A stretch of DNA of 37,868 bases from Acidimicrobiales bacterium. Its GTDB lineage: Bacteria; Actinomycetota; Acidimicrobiia; Acidimicrobiales; RAAP-2. Positions 2,061-30,593 of the stretch are shown here, piece after piece (positions within the stretch are counted from its first letter, which is position 1; each line of letters starts with the position of its first letter). A program made the position numbers and the translations under genes. The notes beneath the pieces are model-generated. The model did not search any database. It saw only the letters and a program-made list of their open reading frames with translations, and was not told the origin of the DNA. The DNA lies in NCBI GenBank assembly GCA_025362585.1, contig JANYFR010000032.1, positions 1 through 37,868 of the forward strand. Direction: 5' to 3'.

Positions 2061-3073
2061 TGGTCCTCGTCGGGCACGAGCGAATAGCGCCGGATGTTGC
2101 GGTCGGCGAGCGCCTGAATGCGCGCGACCACGTCGGGCGAGGTGACCGCGCCCGACTTGTCGAACAGGTGGGCGAAGCGCTTCTGGGGACGCAAGTACTC
2201 TTCGACGGCCGTGCGGTGGCGAAGTGGCACCGACGAGGTCACCTCGCCGTATTCGGCCTCGAAGACCGGGAAGATGCCGGTCTCGTGGGCGAGACGGGCG
2301 AGCGCGATGGTGTCCTTGGAGAGCGTGCCCCAGCCGAGCGGGCACGGTACCAGGACGTGCAGGTAGCGCGCCCCGTGTAACGACATCGCCCGTTCGACCT
2401 TGGACTCGAGATCGAACAGATCCGCGACCGTCGCGGTCGCGACGTAGGGAATCTCGTGGGCCATCGCGAGACGGGCGACGTCCTTGCCCTGACCGAAGGC
2501 GTTACCCGGTTGGGGCCCGACGGCCTGGGTGGTGGCGGTGCGCGCGGCGCCCGGCGTCGTGCTCGATCGCTGCACGCCGGTGTTCATGTAACCCTGATTG
2601 TCGTAGCAGATAAAGAGGACGTCGTCGTTGCGCTCGAACATCCCCGACAGCGCGCCAAAGCCAATGTCCGCGGTGCCGCCGTCGCCGCCCTGGGCGACGA
2701 CGCGCACCACGTCGCGGCCGGTCGCACGCAGCCCCGCGGCGACGCCGGTCGCCACCGACGCGGCGTTGGCGAAGAGCGAGTGGAGCCACGCGACGCGCCA
2801 CGACGTCTCGGGGTAGGGCGTGGAGAAGACTTCGAGACAGCCCGTCGAGTTGACGCAGATCAACTGGCCCCTCGTCGCTCGCATCGCCGCGTCCAGGGCG
2901 TAGCGCGCGCCGAGAGCCTCACCACAGCCGGCGCAGGCCCGGTGGCCCGACGACAGGGAGTTGGCGCGCCGTGGATCGGACTGGGCACTGCGGCGTTCCA
3001 GCTCTACGAGACGGTTCCCAACGGCGAAGCTGCCGACTTGGTAGAAGCGTACCGGAGTCCGTTCACTCAGCAT
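2057..3073 (-). CDS. porB: 2-oxoacid:ferredoxin oxidoreductase, beta subunit
   Basis: 338 residues, the usual size of the thiamine-diphosphate-binding beta chain. The TPP signature begins GDGGTADIG (about 130-138) and ends in YDNQGYMN (157-164). Cysteines 47 and 50 (CAGCGE), 79 and 244 (PCPLGWG) match the positions that hold the proximal [4Fe-4S] cluster in this family. It decarboxylates a 2-oxoacid such as pyruvate and, with the alpha and gamma chains, makes acyl-CoA while reducing ferredoxin. ATG start, 27 bp after the alpha-subunit stop. The reading direction of the operon is gamma, alpha, beta, flavoprotein. Pyruvate is the likeliest substrate, but 2-oxoisovalerate or 2-oxoglutarate enzymes share these motifs. 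Confidence 0.93.
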   Translation of the reverse strand: MLSERTPVRFYQVGSFAVGNRLVELERRSAQSDPRRANSLSSGHRACAGCGEALGARYALDAAMRATRGQLICVNSTGCLEVFSTPYPETSWRVAWLHSLFANAASVATGVAAGLRATGRDVVRVVAQGGDGGTADIGFGALSGMFERNDDVLFICYDNQGYMNTGVQRSSTTPGAARTATTQAVGPQPGNAFGQGKDVARLAMAHEIPYVATATVADLFDLESKVERAMSLHGARYLHVLVPCPLGWGTLSKDTIALARLAHETGIFPVFEAEYGEVTSSVPLRHRTAVEEYLRPQKRFAHLFDKSGAVTSPDVVARIQALADRNIRRYSLVPDEDQ

Positions 3074-3100
3074 CAGCCACCAACCTTCGGCGACGCGAGG

Positions 3101-4327
3101 TCACTCCGCTCGATCTCGACGGGCGAGCGAGCGAGACGATCGGTCGTGGGTCATGCGCTCGAGTTCGCGTTCGACGAGCTCCTCGTTGAGATCGCAGAAG
3201 ACGGTCGCGGGGAGGGTCCCTTCGGCAGCGTTGACGAAGAGCGCGCGCAGTGACGCCGCCCAGATCGGGCGCCCGCCGAGTCCCGCCACGACGGTGTGCA
3301 CCGTCACGCGCCGGTCCCTCAGCGCCATTGCGATGTCGGTCGAGAGGACGCCGCCGTTACCGATACTGAACGCCTTCTCCACAACGACCACGCGCGTGGC
3401 GCTGCGCAACTGCTCCCGTACTTCGTTCACGGGAAAGGGCCGGAAGCAGGAGATGCCGAGCGCCCCAATGTTCACGCCCGTGGCCCGCAGATCGTCGACG
3501 ACGTCCTTGATCGTGCCGAGCACTGAACCCATGGCGACAACGATGAGCGTGGCGTCGATGCTGCGGTAGGGATGAATCAGGCCGGTCGGTGGCCGGTGCC
3601 ACGCGTCGGCGTTCCGTTCGGCCAGTTCGGGGATGACCTCGAGGGCGCGGCGCATGCGGAGCTGGGCGAGGTAGCGGACTTCGGTGAAGGCTTCGGGTCC
3701 GACCATTGCGCCAATGGAAACAGGGTCGTTCGGGTCGAGTACCTGACGCGGTGCGAACGGCGGGACCAACCGGTCGACCACGTCCTGGTCCGGTAGGTCG
3801 ACGCGCTCGATGGAGTGGGTGAGAATGAAGCCGTCGACGCAGACCATCACCGGCACCGAGAGCTCTTCGGCGAGGGCGAACGCCAGAACGTGCAGGTCGA
3901 CCGCCTCTTGATTGGTCTCGGCGAAGAGTTGAATCCAGCCCGCGTCGCGCACGGCCATGGCGTCGGTGTGGTCGTTCCAGATGTTGATCGGCGCACCGAT
4001 CGCGCGATTGGCCAAGGTCATGACGACCGGCAGCCCGAGTCCGGCGGCGTTGTAGACGGCTTCGATCATGTAGAGCAGACCCTGGCTGGCGGTCGCGGTG
4101 TAGGACCGCGCGCCGACGGCCGAAGCGCCAATGGCGACCGACATCGCCGCCATCTCCGAGTCAACGTTGACGAACTCGCAGTTGTCGAGCGCACCCTCTT
4201 TCACCATGGCGCCGAGCGCCTCGATGATGTGGGTCTGGGGGGAGATCGGGTAGGCGCAGACGACCTGGGGACGACAGAGCGCGACCGCCTCGGCAATAGC
4301 GAGCGAGCCCTCAATTTGGCGTTGCAC
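3101..4327 (-). CDS. porA: 2-oxoacid:ferredoxin oxidoreductase, alpha subunit
   Basis: 408 residues. The N-terminal motif YPISPQTHI (26-34) is the family hallmark, and the segments TATASQGLLYM and NIWNDHTDAMAVRD match the pyrimidine-binding half and domain II of 2-oxoacid oxidoreductases. The start is GTG at 4327, preceded by GAGGAG about seven bases upstream. That site lies inside the last codons of the gamma gene, with a 17-bp overlap, so translation is probably coupled. The alpha chain supplies the second half of the thiamine site and the CoA-binding surface. The C-terminal 20 residues are highly charged (MTHDRSSRSLARRDRAE) and probably a disordered tail. Confidence 0.93.
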   Translation of the reverse strand: MQRQIEGSLAIAEAVALCRPQVVCAYPISPQTHIIEALGAMVKEGALDNCEFVNVDSEMAAMSVAIGASAVGARSYTATASQGLLYMIEAVYNAAGLGLPVVMTLANRAIGAPINIWNDHTDAMAVRDAGWIQLFAETNQEAVDLHVLAFALAEELSVPVMVCVDGFILTHSIERVDLPDQDVVDRLVPPFAPRQVLDPNDPVSIGAMVGPEAFTEVRYLAQLRMRRALEVIPELAERNADAWHRPPTGLIHPYRSIDATLIVVAMGSVLGTIKDVVDDLRATGVNIGALGISCFRPFPVNEVREQLRSATRVVVVEKAFSIGNGGVLSTDIAMALRDRRVTVHTVVAGLGGRPIWAASLRALFVNAAEGTLPATVFCDLNEELVERELERMTHDRSSRSLARRDRAE

Positions 4328-4973
4328 GGTGCAGCTCCTCGGTCTCGTGTAGCACGTACTCGAAGGCCGCGCTCGCCGCCGCGACGTTCGCGTCGCCGAG
4401 GGCGTCGGTGAAACGGTGGCGAATCGCCCGACAGACGCCCTCGAACGAGACGATGCCGGTCATCGCCGCGAATCCACCGAGTAGCGCCGAGTTGGGTGTC
4501 GTGCGGTTGAGGTGCTCGCGCGCAATGTCGGTCGCCGGCACCGTGAGGAGGTGGTCACGACGAAACATCGCTCGCAGCTCCCCGAGGCCCAACTCGTCGA
4601 AGCTCGCGACGCTATTGAGCAGCACGTAGCCATCAGCCTGCAGCCCGCCAAAGAGGTCGACCTGACCGAGCAGGGTGGGGTCCTGGATGATCACGACGTC
4701 CGGCGAGCGGACCGGTTCACGGGTCCGTATGACGCGATGACCGATGCGGCAGTACGCCTCGACGGGCGCGCCCATGCGTTCGGATCCGAAGCTCGGAAAG
4801 GCCTGCGCGTAGAGGCCGTCCTCGAAGGCCGCGACCGAGAGCAACTCTGCGCCCGTGACGGTTCCCTGTCCCCCGCGACCGTGCAGCCGCACTTGCGAGA
4901 CAGTGGCTGCGGTAAGCGCCGAGCGTGGCGGCGCGGTTCCCCCTCCAGGTGTCCGCGCGACAACCTCGCTCAT
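4311..4973 (-). CDS. porG: 2-oxoacid:ferredoxin oxidoreductase, gamma subunit
   Basis: 220 residues, first gene of the leftward operon. RLHGRGGQGTVTGAELL (about 29-45) and SFGSERMGAPVEAY are diagnostic of the gamma domain, which helps to form the CoA-binding region. About 28 extra residues, rich in Ala, Pro and Thr, precede the domain. ATG start with AAGGGGG immediately upstream on the minus strand. It is divergent from the PadR gene, and the 194 bp between them must hold both promoters. As the subunits are separate genes, this is the ancestral multi-subunit form rather than the single-chain enzyme. Confidence 0.92.
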   Translation of the reverse strand: MSEVVARTPGGGTAPPRSALTAATVSQVRLHGRGGQGTVTGAELLSVAAFEDGLYAQAFPSFGSERMGAPVEAYCRIGHRVIRTREPVRSPDVVIIQDPTLLGQVDLFGGLQADGYVLLNSVASFDELGLGELRAMFRRDHLLTVPATDIAREHLNRTTPNSALLGGFAAMTGIVSFEGVCRAIRHRFTDALGDANVAAASAAFEYVLHETEELHRATPN

Positions 4974-6637: not shown

Positions 6638-7918
6638 TTATTGACCGCCCGGCGGATGGATGACGAGACCACCCTTGCCCATTCGTTTCGCCTCGTACAG
6701 GGCGAGGTCGGCGTCACGAACGAGGTCGACGCTGGCATCACTCTCTCTGCCCCACACGACCACGCCAACGCTGGCCCGCTGCTCGATGGTGAGCGCGCCC
6801 ACGATGAGCGGACTCGCCAGGGTGGCGAGCAGTCGCGCAGCAATGTGTCGGGCCTCCTCCACGTCGCGGACGTCCTCAGCAAGGTAGAGGAACTCGTCAC
6901 CGCCGAAGCGACAGAGGGTGTCGGACGAGCGGGTCACCGAGTCGAGTCGCCGGGCGACTTCGATGAGAACGTCGTCGCCCGTGAGATGTCCGTGCGTATC
7001 GTTCACCCTCTTGAAGTCGTCGAGGTCAATCAACAGCAGCGCGCTGCGTCCGCCCTGACGCTGCACCCTCGACCGCGCCTGGCTCAGCCGGTCTTCGAAC
7101 AGCGCCCGGTTCGCGAGGCCGGTCATTGAGTCGTGGAGGGCCTGGTGCGAGAGCTGATCGGTGAGCAGGCGCTCTTCGGTGATGTCGCGTTCGGAGATGA
7201 TGAAGTAGAGGGTGTTCCCGACTTCGTCGCGGGCCGACGATTTGGACACTTCGGCGTAGATCATTCGGCCGTCCTTGTGCAGGTATCGCTTCACGTACCG
7301 CACCGTGCCGACTTCGCCTCGAAGAATGCGTTCGTGGGACCCTTCGGTAATGCCGACGTCGTCGGGATGGGTGAAGAGTTTCGAGTCGAACCCGATGATC
7401 TCCTCTTCAGTGCGTCCGACCATCTCGTAGAAGGCATCGTTGGCGGCAAAGATCCTGTCCTCGAGGTCGGTGAAGACCATCGGCGCCATATTGTCCTCGA
7501 AGGCCAATCGAAAGTGTTGTTCGGCGGCTTGGCGCGCCTGTTCGGCCTGACGCTGGGCTGAGTTGTCACGAATTGAACCGATCGTCCAGAACTTGCCGTC
7601 GACGGTGAGGGGCGAGAGCGCGAAGTCCACTGGCAGTTCGGTGCCGTCCTTACGCAGCACCGTCAGCTCCCGGTCGTTCCACATGATCCGGGTCCTCGGG
7701 TCGCGCGCGTAGACGTTGCGGGCCTCGCCCTCGAGTTGGCGCAGCCGCGACGGGACCAGCATCTGCACGTTCTGGCCCACGAGCTCCCCGCGGGCGTACC
7801 CCGTGAGTTGCGAGAGTTCGTCGTTCACGAAGTGCATGATGCCGAGGTTGTCAATCAGTGCGGTCCCGTCGGGCATGGCCTCCATGAGGTGGTGCCACGA
7901 AAGACTGATTTCCTCCAA
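6638..7918 (-). CDS. PAS-PAS-GGDEF diguanylate cyclase
   Basis: 426 residues with no membrane segment. Two PAS domains lie at about 8-120 and 130-250, each ending in a typical PAC motif, and a GGDEF domain at about 258-420. The active site GGDEF (339-343) is intact and the inhibitory site RSSD (330-333) lies exactly five residues before it, so the protein should make c-di-GMP from two GTP and be feedback inhibited. Start TTG at 7918 with AGGGG about nine bases upstream. The later ATG codons at residues 12 and 15 are alternatives. It is a monocistronic gene convergent with the PadR pair. The PAS ligands cannot be predicted. Confidence 0.9.
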   Translation of the reverse strand: MEEISLSWHHLMEAMPDGTALIDNLGIMHFVNDELSQLTGYARGELVGQNVQMLVPSRLRQLEGEARNVYARDPRTRIMWNDRELTVLRKDGTELPVDFALSPLTVDGKFWTIGSIRDNSAQRQAEQARQAAEQHFRLAFEDNMAPMVFTDLEDRIFAANDAFYEMVGRTEEEIIGFDSKLFTHPDDVGITEGSHERILRGEVGTVRYVKRYLHKDGRMIYAEVSKSSARDEVGNTLYFIISERDITEERLLTDQLSHQALHDSMTGLANRALFEDRLSQARSRVQRQGGRSALLLIDLDDFKRVNDTHGHLTGDDVLIEVARRLDSVTRSSDTLCRFGGDEFLYLAEDVRDVEEARHIAARLLATLASPLIVGALTIEQRASVGVVVWGRESDASVDLVRDADLALYEAKRMGKGGLVIHPPGGQ

Positions 7919-12619: not shown

Positions 12620-13521
12620 CAGCGGCGGCTCTCCTTCTTCTGGTAGAGGCGGCCGTCGGCGATTCGCATCAACTCGGCCGGATCGGTCGAGTCGCGCGGT
12701 GAGGTCGACGTGCCGATTGTGAAGTCCACGAGATTGCCGACCGAGGTGAGGTGACCGCGCAGTCGCTCGGTGAAGCCCGTGGACTCGTGACCCTCCGCGT
12801 TACTGAGGATCACCGCGAACTCGTCGCCGCCGACGCGTGCGGCGGTGTCGCCCTGACGCACGGCCTGGCGCAACGCGAAGCCGAACTGGCGCAGCGTGTT
12901 GTCGCCGAACTCGTGGCCCGAGCGGTCGTTAACGTCCTTGAAGTTGTTGAGGTCGATGAGCACCAGGGTGAAGGCCCAGCCGTAGCGTGCGCTACGGGCG
13001 GCGGCGACCTCGAGGGCCTCGTCGAAACTGCGGCGATTCGCGATATTGGTGAGCGGATCGTGGGCGGCGCTGAAGCGCGCGAGGTGCAGCGAGAACGCCA
13101 GCATGCAGGCCGTGCGGATCGCGTCGCACTCGACCGAGGGCACGATGTCGGGCGCGCAGTACACCCCGGGATCGGTGCCGACGCGCGCCGCCATCTCGGG
13201 CGTGACCGCCCCGCCGTGCAAGCGAAACATCTGGGTGCCGAACGAGTCGTGCGCGAGCACGACGACCACGTCATTGAGGCCGTGTCGCTTGGCGAACATG
13301 TCGAGCACCGAGTAGATGAAGCCGACGCCGAGCTCCTTTTCGGAAAGGACGCTCAGCATGGTCTCGAAGAGCCAGGGTTCGTAGGCCCGGTCGGTGAATT
13401 CGTCGCTGTCGTCCGAGCCAGTGTTGAGCAATGGATCCAACACCGCCTCCAACTCTCTCTCGTCGTCCTGCTCGCTCGGCTGGCGAACCGAGTCGGCGGC
13501 TAGTCCACGCTTGGAGCTCAC
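12619..13521 (-). CDS. GGDEF diguanylate cyclase
   Basis: 300 residues. The first 45 residues are acidic and probably disordered, then a GAF-like or unclassified sensory region to about 145, then the GGDEF domain (about 150-298). GGDEF at 231-235 is intact and the feedback site RQGD (222-225) stands five residues before it, so this should be an active, inhibitable cyclase. The start overlaps the stop of the upstream GGDEF-EAL gene by four bases, and the stop shares a base with the next start. No membrane segment. Confidence 0.9.
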   Translation of the reverse strand: MSSKRGLAADSVRQPSEQDDERELEAVLDPLLNTGSDDSDEFTDRAYEPWLFETMLSVLSEKELGVGFIYSVLDMFAKRHGLNDVVVVLAHDSFGTQMFRLHGGAVTPEMAARVGTDPGVYCAPDIVPSVECDAIRTACMLAFSLHLARFSAAHDPLTNIANRRSFDEALEVAAARSARYGWAFTLVLIDLNNFKDVNDRSGHEFGDNTLRQFGFALRQAVRQGDTAARVGGDEFAVILSNAEGHESTGFTERLRGHLTSVGNLVDFTIGTSTSPRDSTDPAELMRIADGRLYQKKESRR

Positions 13522-15821
13522 AACGGTAAGTCTGCCAGTTCCAGCGAGGTGCCCTTGCTCGGACGCAACACTGACTCTGACACGGAACCGCGACTCAGCA
13601 TTTCAGCGAGCTGTTCGGCCGGCACGGGCCGCGAGATCAGGTAGCCCTGCCCGCGGTGACAGCCCAATTCGAGGAGCTTTTCGATGATGACGCTCGACTC
13701 GATACCCTCGGCGATGACCCCCAGGTTGAGCGCCGCGCCGAGTCGTATGATTGATTCGACAATGGCCCGGTCGTAGTTGTCGGTCGTGATGCCGCGCACG
13801 AAACTCATGTCGAGCTTCAAGAGGTTGACGGGTAGATCCTTCAACTGGGTCATCGAGGCGAAACCCGTCCCGAAGTCGTCGAGGGCGACCTCGAGACCGA
13901 GCGCCTGGAACCCGCGCAGAATCTGCGCGATGCGCTCGGGCTCGTCGGCGACCGCGTACTCGGTGATCTCGATGCACAGGCGGTTCCCGGGCACGTTGTT
14001 GTCCTTTAGGCACTGCTCGACGAACTCGACAAGGTCACCCATCCTGAAGTCGGCCGGGGACATGTTGATGCGCACAATCAGCGGCAGGTCGCGGAACTGT
14101 TCTTGCCAGACGCCCAATTGGCGACAGGCCTCGGCGAAGACCCAGCGACCGATCTCGGTGACGAGGCCGGTCTCCTCGGCGACCGTAATGAACTCCGACG
14201 CGGCGAGCAGTCCCCTCGTCGGGTGCTCCCAGCGCACCAGCGCCTCGGCGGCGATAACCCGTCCGGTGCGCAGGTCGACCTCGGGCTGGAAGTGCAGGCG
14301 CAGTCCCCCGAGGTCAATCGCCTCGCGCAGCATCAACTCGGTGAGCGAGCGCTCGTTGACCTCTTCACGGAGCTGGCCGTCGAAGACGACCGCCTGGTTT
14401 CCACCACGCGACTTCGCCGCGTACATTGCCACGTCGGCCCAGCCCAGTAGGTCGAGGCCGCTCGACTCACCCTGCCCGGCGAGCACGATACCAATACTGG
14501 CGGTGTGGCTGACCTCCTGCCCGAAGATCGCGACGGGCCGAGAGATGATCTCGAGGATCCGGTAGGCGGTCGCGAGAACCTCTAACTCACTCTTCGCCTT
14601 GTCGATAATGAAGACGAACTCGTCGCCGCCCAAGCGCGCCGCGAAGTCGTTGCTGCGAATACTGGTGCGGATGCGGTCGGCAATCGTGATGAGGAGACGG
14701 TCGCCACTGCCGTGGCCGAGGAAGTCGTTCATGACTTTGAATCGGTCGAGGTCGATCACCATGACGGCGGTCTCGCGGCGGGCGTCGAGGCGGTTCTTCA
14801 GCTCTTGGATCAGGGCGCGGCGGTTGGGCAGACCGGTCATTTCGTCGTGGTCGGCGTTGTAGCGCGTGCGCTCTTCCGCGTCGATGCGCGCCTGCAGCTG
14901 GACGAGCATTGACGCCACGGCCTGAAGCGCGTTGACCTCGGCCGGGACCCAGTCGTGCATGTTGAAGTGAATGAAGCCGAGGACGCCCCACGTCGAGTCA
15001 CCCAGCAGCAACGGCACGGCGGCGCCGGCGGCCGGCGTCGGCTGTTCAGCCGACTTCGTACGGTCCTTGTACTCGTCGGTGACGTCCTCAAGGCCCGTGA
15101 GATAGGGCGCACGAAGATCGCGCGTGGCCATGAAGATCGGGTCCGAGTCGAAGGCCACTTCGCCGAGCGGGTCGGGGTTGGGCTTATCGAGTCGAATTGG
15201 ATACTCGGCAACGAGGATGCTGAGCTCGCGCGGCAGATCGTTTCGTCGAATGAGGGCAACGTCGGCCACCAAGAATTCGGCGAGCACCTGACAGACCCAG
15301 TCGAGCACCTCCTGGCGAGTCTCGGCCGAGGCCGACATCAGTCGTTCGGCGACTTGGGCGACCAGCTCGTCGAGTCGGCGCTGGTGCAACAAGAGCCCTT
15401 CGCGCGTCGCGAGGGTGGCGACGTGGCTCAGCAGACTTCCAAAGGCCTTCGACAGTGAGCGCTCGCGCGCCGACCACGTGCGCCCGTGACGCGAGACGAC
15501 GAGCGCGCCGACGATATCGCCATTTTGGAGCCTGATGGGATCGACGAGGACACCCCACTCGACGCCCTGGACGACGGTGGAGAACGCCCCGAGGGGAGCC
15601 TCGCCGAGTAACTGACCGCGCACTCGCTCGCCAATGCGTTCGAACGCGGTCTCTGATCCCTCGTTCACGAGTGGTTGGAGCTCGAATCCGGGAATTGCCT
15701 TGGCCCGACTCGTCACCACCGCGACGATCTGGGTACCCGGCACGACCTGGAGGAGAGTCTCGACGACGAGGCGGGTCTCTTCGCCGGCCCTCGCGAGATT
15801 CGAGTTTTCGAGACTTTCCAT
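13518..15821 (-). CDS. GAF-GGDEF-EAL dual c-di-GMP protein
   Basis: 767 residues. A GAF-like region at about 10-140 and a second at about 150-310 precede GGDEF (about 320-490) and EAL (about 500-745). GGDEF 398-402 and the I-site RSND 389-392 are intact. In the EAL domain the key residues are present: E526 (EAL), N596, E618, D648-D649 (DDFGTGF), K669, E705 and Q725. Both activities are therefore possible, with the GAF pair deciding which dominates. ATG at 15821 with AAAGG ten bases upstream. First of three coupled genes; 146 bp separate it from the Rv1355c-like gene. Confidence 0.93.
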   Translation of the reverse strand: MESLENSNLARAGEETRLVVETLLQVVPGTQIVAVVTSRAKAIPGFELQPLVNEGSETAFERIGERVRGQLLGEAPLGAFSTVVQGVEWGVLVDPIRLQNGDIVGALVVSRHGRTWSARERSLSKAFGSLLSHVATLATREGLLLHQRRLDELVAQVAERLMSASAETRQEVLDWVCQVLAEFLVADVALIRRNDLPRELSILVAEYPIRLDKPNPDPLGEVAFDSDPIFMATRDLRAPYLTGLEDVTDEYKDRTKSAEQPTPAAGAAVPLLLGDSTWGVLGFIHFNMHDWVPAEVNALQAVASMLVQLQARIDAEERTRYNADHDEMTGLPNRRALIQELKNRLDARRETAVMVIDLDRFKVMNDFLGHGSGDRLLITIADRIRTSIRSNDFAARLGGDEFVFIIDKAKSELEVLATAYRILEIISRPVAIFGQEVSHTASIGIVLAGQGESSGLDLLGWADVAMYAAKSRGGNQAVVFDGQLREEVNERSLTELMLREAIDLGGLRLHFQPEVDLRTGRVIAAEALVRWEHPTRGLLAASEFITVAEETGLVTEIGRWVFAEACRQLGVWQEQFRDLPLIVRINMSPADFRMGDLVEFVEQCLKDNNVPGNRLCIEITEYAVADEPERIAQILRGFQALGLEVALDDFGTGFASMTQLKDLPVNLLKLDMSFVRGITTDNYDRAIVESIIRLGAALNLGVIAEGIESSVIIEKLLELGCHRGQGYLISRPVPAEQLAEMLSRGSVSESVLRPSKGTSLELADLPL

Positions 15822-15967: not shown

Positions 15968-18925
15968 TCACCAATTTTCCAATGAAATCGGCACCGTCGG
16001 TTCACCCTGCGCCACGTCGCGACTCAGCACGTGGGCGAGGGGCAGACGAACGCTGTGCACCGAGGGCGGCGGCGCTTGGAAGACGCGAAAGACCATAATC
16101 GCCGTTTCGCCGTCGCCAATCCCCCAGAACTCGTTGAACTGCTCGAAGAGCTGGAACATCTCGTCGCGGTAGCGCTCCCCGGCCAGTTGCTGAATGTCGG
16201 TCTCGTTGACGGCGTAGAGAAAGACCGGTGACGCGGGTTGCACGGCCAGTCCGAACATGTCACAGCTCAGCCAGAATCGCTCCATGGCGGCACCGCCGCG
16301 AACGTACCAGAGTGGTTCGGCCCTGGGCACGGTCACGACCGCCAACGCCGAACTGGTCATGATCGACGCCTTCATCCGCATCCCGAGCGCCTGACCGGCC
16401 CGCCAGTCAGCGAGGTGGCCCATCACGTCGGGACGACTCACGATGTCGAGGGCCGCGTAGCCGCCGGGATCCATCTCGAGAGTGCGCACGTCCAGACCGT
16501 CTTCGAGCGAGTCGCGTCCCGGCCAGCGGATCTCGCCCAGCATCTCTTGATGCACGGTCGGCAACAGGAACCGTAAGCGGTCCGAGGCGGCGAGGAGGTC
16601 CGCGCCCGAGTTGATGCGGGCGCGATCAGTCACGAAGTGCAGCCGCGCGCCCTCGCGCTCAACGCCGCGCATGAGAGCCGCGACAGTCTCGGTGGGCACG
16701 GCGGCCGGCTCGCCGATTCGACGGTTGGACGAGCGCGTGTGGAGAAACGCGCTCAGGGGGGAGATGGCGACGTCACCCTGGACACCGAGTTGCATGGTCG
16801 CGACGTGGTGCGAGGGTTTGCCTTCGGGGAAGAGTTTGATCGGACCGAGGACTTTCAGCGACGCCGCCTGAACGCGGGCGTTGAAGATCGCGGCCCCGAC
16901 GCCGACGTAGGTGGCGCGAAAGGCAACGTCCATGGTCGAAGTGCGCTCGGGGTTCATGAAGAATCGCACTTCTTTGTTATCGGCCTCGAAACGCCACGGC
17001 TGCACGTTGCCGCCCGACGGGGCGCGCCTCGCCGCGTCGACAATGAGTTCGATCGAGTCGTCGCTTTGCAACGGCGGGTCTTCGGGCGGAGGAGTGAAGA
17101 GATCGGCCTCGGCCTCGAGATTGACTTCGACCGGCCCGAGCGCCGACAGGATCTCCTCGACGTCAAAGCGCACGCGACCGGACGGCAGCTCTCCGGCCAG
17201 TCCAATCCGTCGCACGGCGGCGGCGATGGTGGCGGCCCCGAGGGTGACCTCGCTGCCGAGCTGGGGCCACCCGGTGATGGTCTGGCCGACTTCGAGGAGT
17301 GACGCGGCCCCGCGCGACGACGCGTCCTTCGCGCCCACCAGGCGGATCACGAACGGTGCCTTTTGGGCCTGGGAGAGGCCGGCCAACTTCGAGGAGTCCA
17401 TATCGCCGAGAAGCCCGTGGAAGATCGGACGGTCCGGCTCGAGGTCGAAGCGCTCCACGTCGAGGACACCACGGTCGCTCGTCTCCATTAGCACGGGGAT
17501 CCGGCGCTCGCGCGCGGCTTCGCGAACGAGAAACTTCATGTCCAGAGAGTCGCACTCTTCGATCACGACGTCAAGGCCGTCGAGGAACTGGCCGAGGTTA
17601 TCGGGGCGCAGGCCCTCGGGTTCGACGACGACCCGCAGGTACGGATCGATCTCGGCAATGCGCCGGGCCGCCACGACGGCCTTGTTGATGCCGAGGTCGA
17701 GGACGCTCGCGGGGATCCGGTTCAGGTTGGAGAGTTCGATGGTGTCGAAGTCGGCGAGGCGCAGCTCGCCCGCGAGACCCTCCATGGCAATCACGTGCGC
17801 GATCGAGTGCCCGGCGCTGAGCCCGACGATGCCAATACGCAGCGACCGCTGGCGCGCCTGCTCGGCACGGGTAATCTTGTTGCGGTTGCGGTCTAGTCGC
17901 AGCGTCGAGAACGAACGCGGGGCGAGGAGGCGCACGACGGCGCGGCGCCACGGGTAGTAGACCCAGCGCGATCCCTCGTCCGTGAGATTGGCGCCCACGG
18001 CGGGAATGATGGCATCGAGTTGTTCACGTTGTTCGTTGAAGCGGTCAATCACCTGGAGCGCCGCGTCCTCGCGCAGGACTCGCAGGACCTCGCGGTGCGA
18101 TCGACCGGCCACGTTCAAGACGAGGGGGCGCCGCGCGTGAGTGCGCGTCGAGGCCGATTCGACGGCACCGGCGCCGAGTCGCGCCGGACCACGACCTAAC
18201 TCCTCGGCCTCTCGACGAAGTGCCTGCTGATTCGCTGGACTGCATAATTCGTAACTCCGACTGCGATCCCACGAGACGCAGACGGTCTGGTAGCGCTCGT
18301 CGGGGTACGGCACCGACGCGGTGCCGACCATCCGGCCACCGGCGGGCGTGCCCACCGACACCAGCGTGTCCGAGACCGCCGCAATCGCGAACTCGGCGCC
18401 CAGCCAGTTCATGGCGTGCGTCACCGATCGGGTGATCGCCGCGATCAGGCGTACACCGGTCACCGCGGCGCCCTTGGACCAAGCACCCTTCACCTCGAGC
18501 GCGCCGAGGCGGATCTCCTGGTCGATCATCGAGCGAATGTCCTCGATCTCTGGTGAATCGGCCATCTCTTCGATTAAATACGCCTGATCGCTGCCTTCGA
18601 GGGGACCGTGGAATCGCACGCCCGCCACCGGTTCGCCCCCGGGGTTGAAACCGAGGAAGAAGAGGGCCACGCCCTCGCCGTCCTCCAGCTCCTGGCGCCG
18701 CAGGGTTCCTTCGAACCCACGGCTGCGGTACTTGCCCTCCGCCTCGTTGAGGTACATCGTCCAGAGGTCGGGCCGCTCGAGCGGATGGTGACCTTCGAAC
18801 CGGACGCCGGACTCCTGGTCAACGAAACTCGAGCCGTACCGGTAGCGACGACCAATTGAGTTGCTCACTGCCCACCTATTCTGCTGACGAATGACTTCGA
18901 AAGGACCGCAAATTGCGGACAACAT
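15968..18925 (-). CDS. Rv1355c/MoeY-like fusion: acyltransferase-like, ThiF/E1 and nitroreductase domains
   Basis: 985 residues. Residues 1-240 look like a GNAT or N-acyl-amino-acid-synthase-type fold (GVALFFLGFNPGGEPVAGVRF). A basic linker follows. At 363-520 lies a ThiF/E1 domain: GIVGLSAGHS replaces the usual GxGxxG, then ADFDTIELSNLNR (391-403) and K415 for ATP. No CxxC zinc pairs and no obvious catalytic Cys are seen. Residues 620-960 form a nitroreductase-like FMN domain starting RRAPSGGNVQPWRF. Mycobacterial Rv1355c is about 715 residues, with E1 and nitroreductase only (recalled); the N-terminal part here is extra. Its name refers to molybdopterin, but that role is doubtful. ATG at 18925 is used; GTG at 18868 is an alternative with better codon use downstream. 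Confidence 0.85.
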   Translation of the reverse strand: MLSAICGPFEVIRQQNRWAVSNSIGRRYRYGSSFVDQESGVRFEGHHPLERPDLWTMYLNEAEGKYRSRGFEGTLRRQELEDGEGVALFFLGFNPGGEPVAGVRFHGPLEGSDQAYLIEEMADSPEIEDIRSMIDQEIRLGALEVKGAWSKGAAVTGVRLIAAITRSVTHAMNWLGAEFAIAAVSDTLVSVGTPAGGRMVGTASVPYPDERYQTVCVSWDRSRSYELCSPANQQALRREAEELGRGPARLGAGAVESASTRTHARRPLVLNVAGRSHREVLRVLREDAALQVIDRFNEQREQLDAIIPAVGANLTDEGSRWVYYPWRRAVVRLLAPRSFSTLRLDRNRNKITRAEQARQRSLRIGIVGLSAGHSIAHVIAMEGLAGELRLADFDTIELSNLNRIPASVLDLGINKAVVAARRIAEIDPYLRVVVEPEGLRPDNLGQFLDGLDVVIEECDSLDMKFLVREAARERRIPVLMETSDRGVLDVERFDLEPDRPIFHGLLGDMDSSKLAGLSQAQKAPFVIRLVGAKDASSRGAASLLEVGQTITGWPQLGSEVTLGAATIAAAVRRIGLAGELPSGRVRFDVEEILSALGPVEVNLEAEADLFTPPPEDPPLQSDDSIELIVDAARRAPSGGNVQPWRFEADNKEVRFFMNPERTSTMDVAFRATYVGVGAAIFNARVQAASLKVLGPIKLFPEGKPSHHVATMQLGVQGDVAISPLSAFLHTRSSNRRIGEPAAVPTETVAALMRGVEREGARLHFVTDRARINSGADLLAASDRLRFLLPTVHQEMLGEIRWPGRDSLEDGLDVRTLEMDPGGYAALDIVSRPDVMGHLADWRAGQALGMRMKASIMTSSALAVVTVPRAEPLWYVRGGAAMERFWLSCDMFGLAVQPASPVFLYAVNETDIQQLAGERYRDEMFQLFEQFNEFWGIGDGETAIMVFRVFQAPPPSVHSVRLPLAHVLSRDVAQGEPTVPISLENW
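18906..18918. promoter_or_regulatory. Inverted repeat CCGCAAATTGCGG
   Basis: CCGCAA and TTGCGG flank one A. It sits within the first codons of the longest Rv1355c-like frame, which argues that it is an operator and that the true start may be the GTG at 18868. Confidence 0.4.
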
Positions 18926-19219: not shown

Positions 19220-19927
19220 GTGACCAAGATCCTCGTCGTCGAAGACGACGCCGCGAACGCCGCGCTGCTGAACAAATTCCTCGTAAGCGAAGGATTCGAG
19301 GTCACCGTGGTGTCCGACGGCCCGTCAGCGGTGACGGCGACGTCGTCCATAGAGCCCGACCTGATCCTGCTCGACATTGGACTGGGCAAGGAAGACGGTC
19401 GCGACGTAATGAAGGAGATTCGCCTCTTAAGTGACGTGCCGGTGATCTTCCTCACGGGCCGGGGACTCGAGTCCGAAAGGATCGCGGGACTGAAGATGGG
19501 CGCCGACGACTACGTCGTCAAACCGTTCTCACTGGCCGAAGTCTCGGCGCGGATCGAGTCGGTACTGCGTCGGGCGGGCGCCAACATCGCCCAGCGCCGG
19601 ATTGACGCCCCGACGTTACGTTTCGGCGAACTGCTCATCAATGAGAACACCCACGAAGTCCACCTCGGTGGCCAGTTGCTCGAGTTGACCTCGAAGGAGT
19701 TCTCCCTGCTGGCCTTCCTGGCGCGCTCGCCGCGCCAGGTCTTCTCACGAGAACAGCTCCTCGAGCACGTGTGGGAGTCGTCGGGCGAATGGCAGAACGA
19801 GGCCACGGTCACCGAGCACATCCGTCGACTGCGCTCCAAACTCGAGACCGACCCCGATCACCCGCGTTGGATTACCACGGTGCGCGGCGTGGGCTATCGG
19901 TTCGAACTCGACGCCAACGGATCCTGA
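19220..19927 (+). CDS. OmpR/PhoB-family response regulator
   Basis: 235 residues. The receiver domain (1-115) has the acidic pair E8-D9-D10, the phosphorylation site D52 (LLDIG), T79 (FLTG) and K101 (VVKPF). A winged-helix output domain covers about 130-230 and ends with the usual TTVRGVGYRFE. The GTG start has AGGAAAGG upstream. It converges on a hybrid histidine kinase with only six bases between the stops. No kinase lies in the same direction, so the partner is not fixed; the convergent kinase, which has its own receiver, is one candidate. Target genes cannot be read from the sequence. Confidence 0.94.
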   Translation: MTKILVVEDDAANAALLNKFLVSEGFEVTVVSDGPSAVTATSSIEPDLILLDIGLGKEDGRDVMKEIRLLSDVPVIFLTGRGLESERIAGLKMGADDYVVKPFSLAEVSARIESVLRRAGANIAQRRIDAPTLRFGELLINENTHEVHLGGQLLELTSKEFSLLAFLARSPRQVFSREQLLEHVWESSGEWQNEATVTEHIRRLRSKLETDPDHPRWITTVRGVGYRFELDANGS

Positions 19928-19933
19928 GTCGAT

Positions 19934-22000
19934 CTACTCGCGCCGCGCGAGCAGGTCGTGCACCTTGTCGATGAGCTGACTGGGCCGGAAGGGTTTGCGC
20001 AGGAACTCCGCACTCCCGGGCAGCAGGTCGGACAGTACCGACTCGTCCTCGGTACCCGAGACGAGCAGCACGCGCAACGACGGTTGGTCGGTCTGCAGGC
20101 TTCGGGCGAGCGCCCCACCGTCCAACTCGGCCATCACGACGTCACTGAGGAGCAGATCGATCGCTCCCTCGAAAGATCCGGCGACGATGAGCGCCTGTTC
20201 GCCCGAGTCGGCTTCGAGGACCCGATAGCCGTTTCGTTGGAGGACCTGACTCATCAGTCGACGCAGATCCTCATCGTCCTCAGAGAGCAGCACCGTCGCC
20301 GATCCCCGTGGTCGCACGTATTCGTCGCCGGCGCGCGTGACGTCTTGGGCATCACCAGTCGCGACCGGCAGCGCAATCTCGAAGGTGGTGCCCTCGCCGG
20401 GCGTCGAGGTGCACCAGATCGCGCCGCCACTCTCGTCGACGAATCGCCGGGCCGCCGCGAGGCCCAAGCCGGTGCCCTGAAAGGGACCCTTGGTCGTGAA
20501 GAGCGGCTCGAAGCAGGCCTCGCGCGTGGTCGCGTCCATTCCCACGCCGGTGTCGCTCACCGCGAGGCGCACGTACTGTCCACTTCGTAGTCCAAGGGCT
20601 GCGGCGGCCTCACCCTCGAGCGGCGACGCGGCGAGCGATATGCGCAGCGTTCCCCCGTCGGCCATGGCGTCGCGGGCGTTGATCGCCAGGTTGAGAATCA
20701 GCTGTTCGAACTGGTCGGCGTCGACGCGAACGTTGCCCACCTCGTCGTCACAGGACCACTGGAGGTCGATGGCGGGGCCGAGGATGCGTTCGAGGACTTC
20801 CGCGTTCGACTGGATCACGGCGACGGGAGCGAAGACCACCGGTTCGGGCACCTTCGTGCGACCAATGGTCTGCAGCTGGCTCGTCAACAGCGACGCCCTC
20901 GAGGCCGTGGTTTGGATGTCGCGCACCAACTGCAGGTCGCGATGTTCGTCACCGAGTTCCCTCGCCAGGATCTCGGCGTAGCCGGTGATCAGGGTCAGCA
21001 GATTATTGAAGTCGTGGGCGATTCGACTGGCGACCTGACCGCGCACTTCCATCGTGTGGGCGTGGCGTACCTCGGCCTTCAACTCCCGGCTTTCGGTGAC
21101 GTCGTCAATCAGCGTGAGGATCGATTCGGCGTTGTCGCCCGTCGACGGCAGCAATGCTGCCGACGCGGTGAGTTCACGACGTCGAGTACCGATTTCCACG
21201 TCATCAAGATCGCGACCACTCACCGAGTCCCTTGACATGACGTCGGTCCAGAGCGTCTGAAGTCCCTCGAGCGCTGAGTCGGGGAAGTCGGGATGGGCGC
21301 CGCCGCCCCCGGCCAGTTCGGGCCACGCGAAGATCCGGCTCGCTCGACGGTTCCACCAACGAACGCCACCGTCGAGTTCGACCTCGACGATCCCCACCGG
21401 CGCCGTCTCGACGAGAACACGCAGGCGCGCTTCACTGTTCTGCATCGTGCGACTGAGCTCGACGGCAACGATGGCGGTCGCCGCCATCTGGGCGAGCAGC
21501 GTCAACACCTCCTTATCCTCAGTGCCGAACTCCGAACCCGACTCCCGACAGAAGGCAATGACGCCCCTCGTGCGATCGCGTCGTTCGAGGATTGGCGCGA
21601 CCAGCCAGTCGTTTTCGACCCACGGGGTGGCCCCACCTCGGCGTGACGTCGGCAGGTCGGCTTGGCCGCCCGCGTCGCGAGGATCCTCCCAGGTCGCTGC
21701 CCCGCCCCGCAGCGCGACGCCACGCAACGGCGCGAGAGCCCCAACCTCGAGTGCGACAATTGCCCGCTCGGCGCCAAAGACGTCGCGGGTGCTGGCGGCG
21801 AGGCTCGCCAGCAGTTCGGGTTCGCTGCGCAGGCCACCGACGGTGATCGCCGCCGCAATCAGTTGGTGCAACTGGCTTGCCACGCGTTGGGTTCGGCGCA
21901 CCGCCGCGCGGGCTTCGTCGAGAACCCGGTTGCGCTCGGCCTTGTGGCTCACCTTCGTCGCCTCGGCGCGTCGACGCTCCTCGCGCTTCTTCTCCCCCAT
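19934..22000 (-). CDS. Cytoplasmic hybrid histidine kinase (GAF-PAS-HisKA-HATPase-REC)
   Basis: 688 residues without membrane segments. A basic coiled coil (1-40) is followed by GAF (about 45-185), PAS (about 190-305), dimerisation helix with His329 in RIAHDFNNLL, and an ATPase with the N-box NLAINARDAM (437-446), DTGVGM (483-488), F-box FEPLFTTKG and GLGLAAARRF. A C-terminal receiver (about 565-688) has D620 and K669, and SGT at 648-650. The HDFNNLL type of H-box is the family that often ends in a fused receiver. The start is two bases after the stop of the EAL gene, with no clear ribosome-binding site, so the two are coupled. The receiver has no output domain, so the phosphate must be passed to another protein. 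Confidence 0.93.
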   Translation of the reverse strand: MGEKKREERRRAEATKVSHKAERNRVLDEARAAVRRTQRVASQLHQLIAAAITVGGLRSEPELLASLAASTRDVFGAERAIVALEVGALAPLRGVALRGGAATWEDPRDAGGQADLPTSRRGGATPWVENDWLVAPILERRDRTRGVIAFCRESGSEFGTEDKEVLTLLAQMAATAIVAVELSRTMQNSEARLRVLVETAPVGIVEVELDGGVRWWNRRASRIFAWPELAGGGGAHPDFPDSALEGLQTLWTDVMSRDSVSGRDLDDVEIGTRRRELTASAALLPSTGDNAESILTLIDDVTESRELKAEVRHAHTMEVRGQVASRIAHDFNNLLTLITGYAEILARELGDEHRDLQLVRDIQTTASRASLLTSQLQTIGRTKVPEPVVFAPVAVIQSNAEVLERILGPAIDLQWSCDDEVGNVRVDADQFEQLILNLAINARDAMADGGTLRISLAASPLEGEAAAALGLRSGQYVRLAVSDTGVGMDATTREACFEPLFTTKGPFQGTGLGLAAARRFVDESGGAIWCTSTPGEGTTFEIALPVATGDAQDVTRAGDEYVRPRGSATVLLSEDDEDLRRLMSQVLQRNGYRVLEADSGEQALIVAGSFEGAIDLLLSDVVMAELDGGALARSLQTDQPSLRVLLVSGTEDESVLSDLLPGSAEFLRKPFRPSQLIDKVHDLLARRE

Positions 22001-29343: not shown

Positions 29344-30593
29344 ACAACGATCGAACACCTGACGTCTCGGTAGAGACTGCGGTCGCCGATGCGCACCGTT
29401 GCGAGTGGGCCTACGTGCTCGCCGCGACGGTGCGCGTCGCGGGCGACATCGACCTCGCCGAAGAGTGCGTCCAGGACGCGTACGCGAGGGCATTGGCGAC
29501 GTGGCCCGTCAGTGGCATTCCGACCAAGCCCGGAGCATGGCTCACGACCGTCGCGCGTCGCCGCGCCATCGATCATCTCCGTCAACGCAACGTCCGCGAC
29601 CGTGTACTTCAGGGCTTGTACGTCGTCGAAAGTGAAGACGGCGTTGAGACCAACATTACGGCGATGTCCGACGACCGACTACGCCTTATCTTCACGTGTT
29701 GTCACCCGGCGCTTTCCTCCGAAGCTCAGATTGCGTTGACCTTACGACTGCTTTGTGGTCTCACGACGAGTGAGGTGGCCCGAATGTTTCTCGTGCCCGA
29801 ATCAACGATGGCCGCGCGCATCACTCGCGCCAAGAAGAAGATTGTCGCGGCGAGAGTTCCCTACCGCGTACCCTCGTCCGACGAATTGCCCGAACGGATC
29901 GACGCGGTTCTCACGGTCGTGCATCTGCTATTCACGACCGGCCACACGGCGCCCGGTGGCTCCGAGCTCGTTCGTCGCGACCTCGTGGAGCGCTCGTTGG
30001 TCCTGGCGCGCATGCTCCGCTCGTTGCTGCCGGACAGTCCCGACGTTGCGGGACTGTTGGCGCTCATTCTTCTCGCCGATGCTCGAAGCAGGACCCGGGT
30101 CGCTACGGACGGCTCCCTCGCACTCCTCTCGGATCAGGATCGAAGCCAGTGGGACGCCGCGGAGATCGCCGAGGGACTGTCGCTCGTCCGCGAAGCGTTG
30201 CAACGACGTCCGCCAGGTCGCTTCGCATTGATGGCGGCGATTGCGGCGGTCCACGCCGAAGCTCCGAGTTGGTCGGCGACTGACTGGCGCGAACTCGTGG
30301 GGCTGTACGAACTGCTCGTACGCATCTGGCCCTCCCCCGTCGTCGCACTTAACCGCGCGGTCGCGATCGGTCTGGCCGAGGGTCCCGCCGCCGGACTCGT
30401 CGCCCTCGACGAATTAACCACTGAACCGCAACTCGCGTCGTATCGCTACCTCGCCGCCGCCAGGGCCGACTTTTTAAGCCGCCTGAATCGCCTCGACGAG
30501 GCCCGTGACGCCTATGAAGTAGCGATCGCTCTCACCGACAACGCGGTCGAGCACGAGTTCCTGGCGCTGCGACTGGCCGCCATTGTTTCGTAG
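29340..30593 (+). CDS. ECF42-like RNA polymerase sigma factor with C-terminal extension
   Basis: About 417 residues. Region 2 is DLAEECVQDAYARAL with PGAWLTTVARRRAIDHLR, and region 4 has LRLLCGLTTSEVARMFLVP and STMAARITRAKKKI. A long alpha-helical, TPR-like extension follows, ending LNRLDEARDAYEVAIAL. This form, next to a DGPF protein, is ECF42. The start is odd: the family-type N-terminus (VETAVADAHRCEWAYVLAATVRVAGD) lies before the first GTG at 29415, and no ATG, GTG or TTG exists in that frame upstream. CTG at 29340 overlaps the DGPF stop (CTGA) and would give a normal length. GTG 29415 would remove about 25 residues that look conserved. No anti-sigma gene is visible. Confidence 0.88.
   Translation: MNNDRTPDVSVETAVADAHRCEWAYVLAATVRVAGDIDLAEECVQDAYARALATWPVSGIPTKPGAWLTTVARRRAIDHLRQRNVRDRVLQGLYVVESEDGVETNITAMSDDRLRLIFTCCHPALSSEAQIALTLRLLCGLTTSEVARMFLVPESTMAARITRAKKKIVAARVPYRVPSSDELPERIDAVLTVVHLLFTTGHTAPGGSELVRRDLVERSLVLARMLRSLLPDSPDVAGLLALILLADARSRTRVATDGSLALLSDQDRSQWDAAEIAEGLSLVREALQRRPPGRFALMAAIAAVHAEAPSWSATDWRELVGLYELLVRIWPSPVVALNRAVAIGLAEGPAAGLVALDELTTEPQLASYRYLAAARADFLSRLNRLDEARDAYEVAIALTDNAVEHEFLALRLAAIVS

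Follow-up and report, generated by a model that had tools for sequence, protein, structure and literature searches.

The window, a 37,868-nucleotide stretch of DNA from an Acidimicrobiales bacterium (contig JANYFR010000032.1), carries a gene for a long protein that combines an acyltransferase-like domain, a ThiF/E1-like domain, and a nitroreductase-type domain. This gene very probably encodes an acyl-oxazolone synthase, and probably an acyl-tryptazolone synthase, in which TrzA and TrzS are fused into a single chain. TrzS (Rv1355c) combines a ThiF-type cyclase with a flavin oxidase, and it converts N-acyl-tryptophan to acyl-tryptazolones; TrzA is encoded upstream of TrzS in an operon (PMC12856293). 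A preliminary description of the window had proposed the three-domain chain at 15968-18925, and we recovered all of its parts: the open reading frame (ORF), matches to PF00899 and PF00881, and, by structure prediction, the fold of the N-terminus.

By analogy with the published experiments on TrzA and TrzS, we infer three reactions in a fixed order. The N-terminal domain would use an acyl-CoA and L-tryptophan to form N-acyl-tryptophan. The ThiF-like domain would then activate the carboxylate with ATP, and the amide oxygen would close the oxazolone ring. Finally, the oxidase domain, which is expected to depend on flavin mononucleotide, would desaturate the amino acid part in an O2-dependent reaction. 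The intermediates would perhaps be handed between the domains of the single chain.

Domains and family of the synthase

The open frame at 15968-18925 on the minus strand begins with ATG and spans 985 amino acids, as had been claimed. In 6 of 29 loci (L006, L008, L016, L017, L018, and L021; the 29 include the window's own), there is an in-frame stop a few residues ahead of the position of V20. Because of these stops, and because the codon for V20 is GTG (at 18868), the true protein probably starts there and has 966 amino acids. Residue numbers below follow the 985-residue frame, while our alignments A1-A3 follow the 966-residue frame (the 985 number minus 19).

A chance ORF is ruled out by conservation, as 28 of 36 genomes from the same genus contain a strong match. 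These matches are nearly full length in 26 of the 28 (61-83% identity); in the other two, the match is in two frames (G015) or is cut by the end of the contig (G024). (A tally of 59 of 61 genomes includes short matches to the ThiF domain, and we did not use it.) A pseudogene is ruled out as well: the 29 loci have seven in-frame stops, of which six are ahead of the probable start and one (in L015) is at the C-terminal end.

Residues 259-967 belong to NF005901 (the "Rv1355c family"), scoring 905.6 bits (cut-off 476) and covering model positions 5-718 of 722. The other 17 NCBIfam families listed for the protein were all under their cut-offs. This agrees with the preliminary description, which had noted that the mycobacterial Rv1355c/MoeY carries the last two domains. 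Members of this family from Mycobacterium and Rhodococcus have been shown to be cyclases and desaturases (PMC12856293).

The ThiF domain (PF00899) matches at residues 345-480 with E = 3.3e-22. Its nucleotide loop reads GLSAGHS, and residues 344-600 contain just one cysteine (C458), so the zinc cysteines are missing; both of these features had been noticed beforehand. The homolog of TrzS in Rhodococcus spelaei also has a GLSxGH loop. The nitroreductase family PF00881 matches at residues 621-646 (33.4 bits, cut-off 23.5). The model for Acg-type flavin oxidases, NF047509, spans residues 628-917 but is under its cut-off (137 vs. 199 bits). A predicted structure of the full-length protein had a mean predicted local distance difference score (pLDDT) of 86.0 and a predicted TM score (pTM) of 0.74. 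Its best Foldseek match was Acg (2ymv), which is also the structure closest to the oxidase of TrzS (PMC12856293). The next match was the ThiF-fold protein AclA, for which our literature search found nothing; further matches included MoeB, ThiF, and PaaA.

In TrzS from M. smegmatis, the substitutions D217A, R540A, and Q651A impair the cyclization or desaturation steps (PMC12856293). We identified candidate equivalents by their spacing, rather than by alignment to the M. smegmatis sequence. The spacing of 111 between R540 and Q651 fits 11 of the 12 rows that we compared, and is 110 in the twelfth. It would place R540 at the second arginine of a D/E-R-x-R motif (R785) and Q651 at the glutamine of a QP motif (Q896). 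The spacing for D217 fits either D459 or D462. All 41 rows of alignment A3 have D459, D462, and R785, and conservation of Q896 is 90% or higher.

The annotation of this family as MoeY would imply a role in molybdopterin synthesis or as an E1 for a sulfur carrier. The ThiF fold and the matches to MoeB and ThiF by Foldseek would fit such a role. Against it, the protein scores just 41.2 bits with the MoeB model TIGR02355 (cut-off 376.55), the E1-like domain lacks the zinc cysteines, no molybdopterin-locus genes are among the 28 ORFs of the window that we scanned (including the synthase), and the genome encodes a separate ThiF-domain protein elsewhere (C7). We reject this role as hardly credible. 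The preliminary description had called the molybdopterin annotation weak, and the scan of the window (homologous loci were not scanned) and the products of the TrzS family agree.

E1-like and nitroreductase domains also occur in peptide pathways. This, along with the structural similarity to AclA and PaaA, might suggest an enzyme that modifies ribosomally synthesized peptides, yet the acyltransferase-like domain and the membership in the TrzS family indicate free amino acids. We reject a peptide-modifying role too, as very improbable. Of the "small-molecule or peptide-modifying pathway" that had been proposed for this gene, the small-molecule half is upheld by the TrzS family and by the FeeM/LuxI-like fold described below; the peptide half found no support, though no search was aimed at a conserved small precursor gene.

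The N-terminal domain and its kinship to TrzA

Scans of the N-terminus with Pfam and NCBIfam found no family above its cut-off. Across 45 members, listings up to E = 1 did not include the FeeM family (PF21926), and the only matches were weak: PF20844, a family of eukaryotic repeats, in 22 of the 45 (best E = 0.0027) and Acetyltransf_1 in one (E = 0.014). Two residues of the N-terminus, E125 and K127 in the 966-residue numbering, are identical in all 45 aligned rows. A profile search against the sequences in the PDB gave no matches up to E = 10.

Structure prediction was more informative. From the 45 aligned sequences, AlphaFold2 gave a model with pLDDT of 85.3 and pTM of 0.83, whose best Foldseek match was FeeM (2g0b, E = 2.0e-6, TM score of 0.70 by target). 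In a second structural comparison, LasI (Z = 14.6, root-mean-square deviation 3.5, 186 aligned residues) and FeeM (Z = 14.5, deviation 3.3, 179 aligned residues) tied for the top, with TofI, RpaI, and BjaI nearby. The N-terminus is thus predicted to have the acyltransferase fold of FeeM and LuxI, which bears out the acyltransferase-like character that had been proposed for it.

Since this fold is widespread, kinship at the level of sequence carries weight in identifying the domain. A separate ORF directly before TrzS in R. spelaei encodes a protein with 31% identity to the N-terminus (192 residues, 104 bits). Separate ORFs that match the N-terminus (67-120 bits) are also present in 41 of 43 loci that have both TrzS domains and are from f57, the family that we take as Mycobacteriaceae. 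Of these 41 ORFs, 37 lie no more than 400 bp from trzS, and 26 are on the same strand as trzS. (The 43 loci leave out L198, taken as a duplicate of L166, and L229, whose contig ends ahead of any oxidase domain.) A search of the window's genome with the TrzA-like protein of R. spelaei gave one good match, to this N-terminal domain (E = 1.0e-27), and the runner-up had E = 0.02. Because of these matches to separate ORFs, and because there is no other good match in the genome, we conclude that the protein is a fusion of TrzA and TrzS.

Several observations weigh against the identification of this protein as a tryptazolone synthase. The N-terminus is just 25-35% identical to TrzA-like proteins, and neither Pfam nor NCBIfam gives it a name. 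A plain GNAT protein, SACOL1063 (Z = 14.2), ties with FeeM in the second structural comparison. A profile comparison with the N-terminus of PRK14852, which contains a FeeM domain, gave no match (probability 0.2%), so the kinship to FeeM is by fold alone. The nucleotide loop is altered, and the use of ATP is predicted. The residues of TrzS were matched by spacing and TrzA was matched by gene position. Finally, we propose tryptophan as the substrate by inference, as specificity is unreadable from the sequence here.

The same three steps might act on another amino acid, such as tyrosine, phenylalanine, or a non-aromatic one, and yield a tyrazolone-like or new oxazolone. TyzACB and OxzAB do act on tyrosine or phenylalanine (PMC10404671), and the N-terminus is just 31% identical to the TrzA-like protein of R. 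spelaei. But the cyclase-oxidase part lies inside the TrzS equivalog family (NF005901), and all three TrzAS pairs that were assayed gave only tryptophan-derived oxazolones in vivo (PMC12856293). We view a different amino acid as possible but doubtful.

Another question is whether the oxazolone is the lasting product. Clusters with NasY, a ThiF protein, and a nitroreductase, like the producers of stieleriacines and thalassotalic acids, give open dehydrotyrosines, with no oxazolone seen there (PMC12479983), and oxazolones are prone to hydrolysis (PMC12856293). In such a case, the oxazolone would be transient and an open N-acyl-dehydroamino acid would accumulate. With TrzS, in contrast, cyclization comes first and is required for desaturation, and the closed ring was detected in cells (PMC12856293). 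An open end product is therefore unlikely, and we favor the acyl-oxazolone.

Distribution and origin of the fused form

To find relatives, we used one scan of genome contigs. The best 80 of 423 relatives comprise 79 loci from metagenome-assembled genomes (MAGs) and one from Rhodococcus. The MAG loci are labelled as Acidimicrobiaceae or Acidimicrobiales (49), other Actinobacteria (24), Acidobacteria (5), or Saccharibacteria (1); the labels as Acidobacteria and Saccharibacteria may be mistaken. Among these best 80, the three domains are complete in a single ORF in 72 of the 79 MAG loci. In four others (L135, L147, L148, and L162), the ThiF frame also includes part of the N-terminal domain, and the remainder of that domain is split or cut. 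The last three (L145, L150, and L161) start at the edge of a contig, past the junction. In another class (that of G177), the gene is present in 3 of 66 genomes and is fused in all three.

The fused form was found in none of the 43 f57 loci. (Four f57 genomes, G430, G442, G447, and G463, were left out because only the ThiF part was over the threshold. Also uncounted were L055, which is from the window's order and another family and has ThiF only; L056 and L057, which are from f57 and have ThiF only; and L058, which is from family f72 and has the oxidase only.) In R. spelaei (L166:9908-12829), the ORF for the TrzA-like protein runs in the same frame as its neighbor, the TrzS ORF, with one TGA codon between them. 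Overall, 3 of 23 same-strand pairs of TrzA-like and TrzS ORFs are in a common frame, which is no more than expected by chance.

We also built a quick tree with 71 rows, which took 22 of the 79 MAG loci and left out L198 (taken as a duplicate of L166). All 27 fused rows are on one side of one branch, with SH-aLRT support of 94 (not starred). One fusion or one fission suffices to explain this tree. The acyltransferase is a separate protein in the other pathways that have been described, and for this reason we regard the fused form as derived. On the tree, L159, which is labelled as Acidimicrobiales, clusters with the sequences from the other class (support of 95, starred). This grouping suggests that the gene moved between classes.

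Linkage to c-di-GMP genes

The preliminary description had placed the synthase beside genes for cyclic di-GMP (c-di-GMP) signaling, and the window contains GAF-GGDEF-EAL, GGDEF, EAL, PAS/GAF-EAL, and PAS-GGDEF genes (Table 1). The genome encodes five GGDEF and five EAL domains, of which three of each are on this 38-kb contig. The GAF-GGDEF-EAL protein just downstream of the synthase has the same layout as the mycobacterial Rv1354c (PMC2994820). The protein with PAS, GAF, and EAL domains gave no match to our patterns for EALxR and DDFGTG, and it may be a receptor for c-di-GMP rather than an enzyme.

Table 1. Coordinates of the synthase gene, its domains, and nearby genes in the window.
Feature	Position	Strand	Remarks
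Three-domain synthase gene	15968..18925	minus	985 aa from ATG; likelier 966 aa from GTG at 18868
N-acyl-amino-acid-synthase-like domain, predicted FeeM/LuxI fold, TrzA-like	18161..18868	minus	Residues 20-255; AlphaFold2, Foldseek, 31% identity to R. spelaei protein
ThiF/E1-like domain, predicted ATP-dependent oxazolone cyclase	17126..17896	minus	Residues 344-600; PF00899, conserved residues, 1 Cys
Nitroreductase-type flavin-dependent oxidase domain, predicted desaturase	16025..17065	minus	Residues ~621-967; PF00881, NF005901, Foldseek match to Acg 2ymv
GAF-GGDEF-EAL protein, 767 aa, Rv1354c layout	13518..15821	minus	GGDEF, EALVR, and DDFGTG motifs; begins 146 bp downstream of synthase gene
GGDEF protein, 300 aa	12619..13521	minus	4-bp overlap with the preceding GAF-GGDEF-EAL gene
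EAL-only protein, 281 aa	22003..22848	minus	ESLIR in place of expected EALxR
GAF-PAS hybrid histidine kinase with receiver domain	19934..22000	minus	Domain scan
Divergent OmpR-type response regulator	19220..19927	plus	Domain scan; faces away from synthase gene
PAS/GAF-EAL protein, 1494 aa	24071-28555		No match to EALxR and DDFGTG patterns
PAS-GGDEF protein	6638-7918

This arrangement recurs. A survey of the neighborhoods of the three-domain homologs, which had been suggested as a check, found, in all 79 MAG loci, a downstream ORF on the same strand whose GAF domain is that of the GAF-GGDEF-EAL protein in the window, at a distance of at most 300 bp in 78 of them. This ORF is complete as GAF-GGDEF-EAL in 72 of the 79 and is cut or split in the others, and in 63 it is followed by a GGDEF ORF resembling the one in the window. 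By comparison, the OmpR-type regulator is at the matching place in 8 of the 79 (not all of which include the upstream DNA).

The linkage extends to the separate form of the genes. In R. spelaei, a GAF-GGDEF-EAL gene is likewise downstream of TrzS. Across the 43 f57 loci, with distances measured between stop-to-stop ORFs, the nearest c-di-GMP gene is at most 1.5 kb away in 40 and at most 6 kb away in all 43. That gene encodes GAF-GGDEF-EAL in 27 loci, GGDEF alone in 15 (L214-L223, L225-L228, and L231), and GGDEF-EAL in one. These 15 loci, where the neighbor is GGDEF-only, thus show the linkage again with another kind of c-di-GMP gene.

As a control for the abundance of such genes, we counted GGDEF domains in 48 genomes with the synthase (45 from f57 and 3 from f72). 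All 48 contain GGDEF, and 11 contain exactly one (G403, G416, G429, G435, G133, G450, G462, G466, G483, G493, and G495). In all 11, the single GGDEF ORF adjoins the synthase.

The genes also co-occur. In a sample of 121 f57 genomes, GGDEF is present in 49 of 49 with a strong match to NF005901 (E up to 1e-150; four of the 49 have the ThiF part only) and in 31 of 72 without one (P = 1e-12, Fisher's exact test). Within the window's genus, GGDEF is present in all 31 genomes with the synthase (the 28 of 36 mentioned above, the window's own, G300, and G011, which has only the C-terminal end, at the end of a contig). Seven of the nine genomes in which we did not find the synthase have no GGDEF either (G006, G013, G016, G019, G022, G269, and G289; P = 2e-6, Fisher's exact test). 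Because the genomes are related, these P values are too small.

There are also observations that argue against a dedicated c-di-GMP link. In three f57 loci (L049, L051, and L195), 2.6-5.7 kb separate trzS from the nearest c-di-GMP gene. The 31 f57 genomes with GGDEF genes but no strong match to NF005901 include eight with exactly one, and two genomes from the window's genus (G002 and G021) have GGDEF genes without the synthase. Also, a review lists GDP as what the GAF domain binds in DcpA of M. smegmatis (PMC8846402), which speaks against direct sensing of the product by GAF. We take DcpA to be the counterpart of Rv1354c.

Overall, the genomic coupling between the synthase and c-di-GMP genes is strong. 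The neighboring protein might sense the product, c-di-GMP might control production, or both might merely serve a common state, such as biofilm formation or stress. It is plausible, as the preliminary description had suggested, that the product might act as a signal for c-di-GMP. More broadly, and tentatively, acyl-oxazolones could be signals of the Actinomycetota: a fused or split synthase and the adjacent diguanylate cyclase or phosphodiesterase would form a module, in which GAF or PAS domains sense the oxazolone or the open acyl amino acid. We would bet against this broader idea. The physiological role of acyl-oxazolones has been called a major unresolved question (PMC12856293). The adjacency of the synthase to a c-di-GMP gene was recorded for M. 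tuberculosis (PMC12856293), and our literature search found no account of a wider linkage. The recurrent pairing, including the 11 genomes whose sole GGDEF is beside the synthase, turns an adjacency in one species into a testable pattern.

Two other features of the window stand apart from the synthase. A sigma-70-type factor with DUF6596 (29415-30590) adjoins the c-di-GMP cluster. At 429-4973 there is an apparent 2-oxoacid:ferredoxin oxidoreductase set, with POR_N, POR, a thiamine pyrophosphate enzyme, and a pyridine nucleotide oxidoreductase with Fe-S domains.

Comparison with known synthases

The single-chain form is a variant of a known pathway. It shares with TrzA and TrzS (Rv1356c/Rv1355c, and their counterparts in M. 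smegmatis and R. jostii; PMC12856293) the NF005901 cyclase-oxidase, the acyltransferase-like partner, and the adjacent c-di-GMP genes. It differs in that the acyltransferase, which is separate in the characterized cases, is part of the same chain, and in that it is found in other lineages of Actinomycetota, where it is known from genes alone. A natural one-protein version means that a single clone is expected to carry the whole pathway. Our results also argue for re-annotation of the family that is labelled MoeY or "Rv1355c family."

The tyrazolone synthases TyzACB and OxzAB have the three activities in common with the window's protein, but their acyltransferase is separate in the accounts that we consulted, and their substrate is tyrosine or phenylalanine (PMC10404671). 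TyzA is described as structurally near FeeM and BjaI (PMC10404671). TyzB and OxzB are in a different subcluster of ThiF proteins from TrzS (PMC12856293). FeeM and the LuxI-type synthases (LasI, TofI, EsaI, BjaI, RpaI, and MesI) appear to share the fold of the N-terminal domain, with just 7-18% identity in structural alignments and no sequence family match detected.

The three-domain plan itself was already catalogued, without a function, as PRK14852/NF011425. This family includes WP_011787321.1 from plasmid pDVUL01 of Nitratidesulfovibrio vulgaris, which likewise has FeeM (PF21926, E = 5e-44), ThiF, and nitroreductase domains in one chain of 989 amino acids. It differs from the window's protein in the sequence family of its acyltransferase, in its GLGGVGG loop, in its PEP-CTERM gene neighbors, and in being named a hypothetical protein. 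The window's protein scores 88.4 bits with NF011425 (cut-off 1337) and is not a member. The plan may have arisen twice, and its presence in two such chains supports a shared sequence of reactions. The pDVUL01 chain (L232:2216-5185), which is beside genes for PEP-CTERM proteins, is possibly another one-protein synthase of the acyl-oxazolone type.

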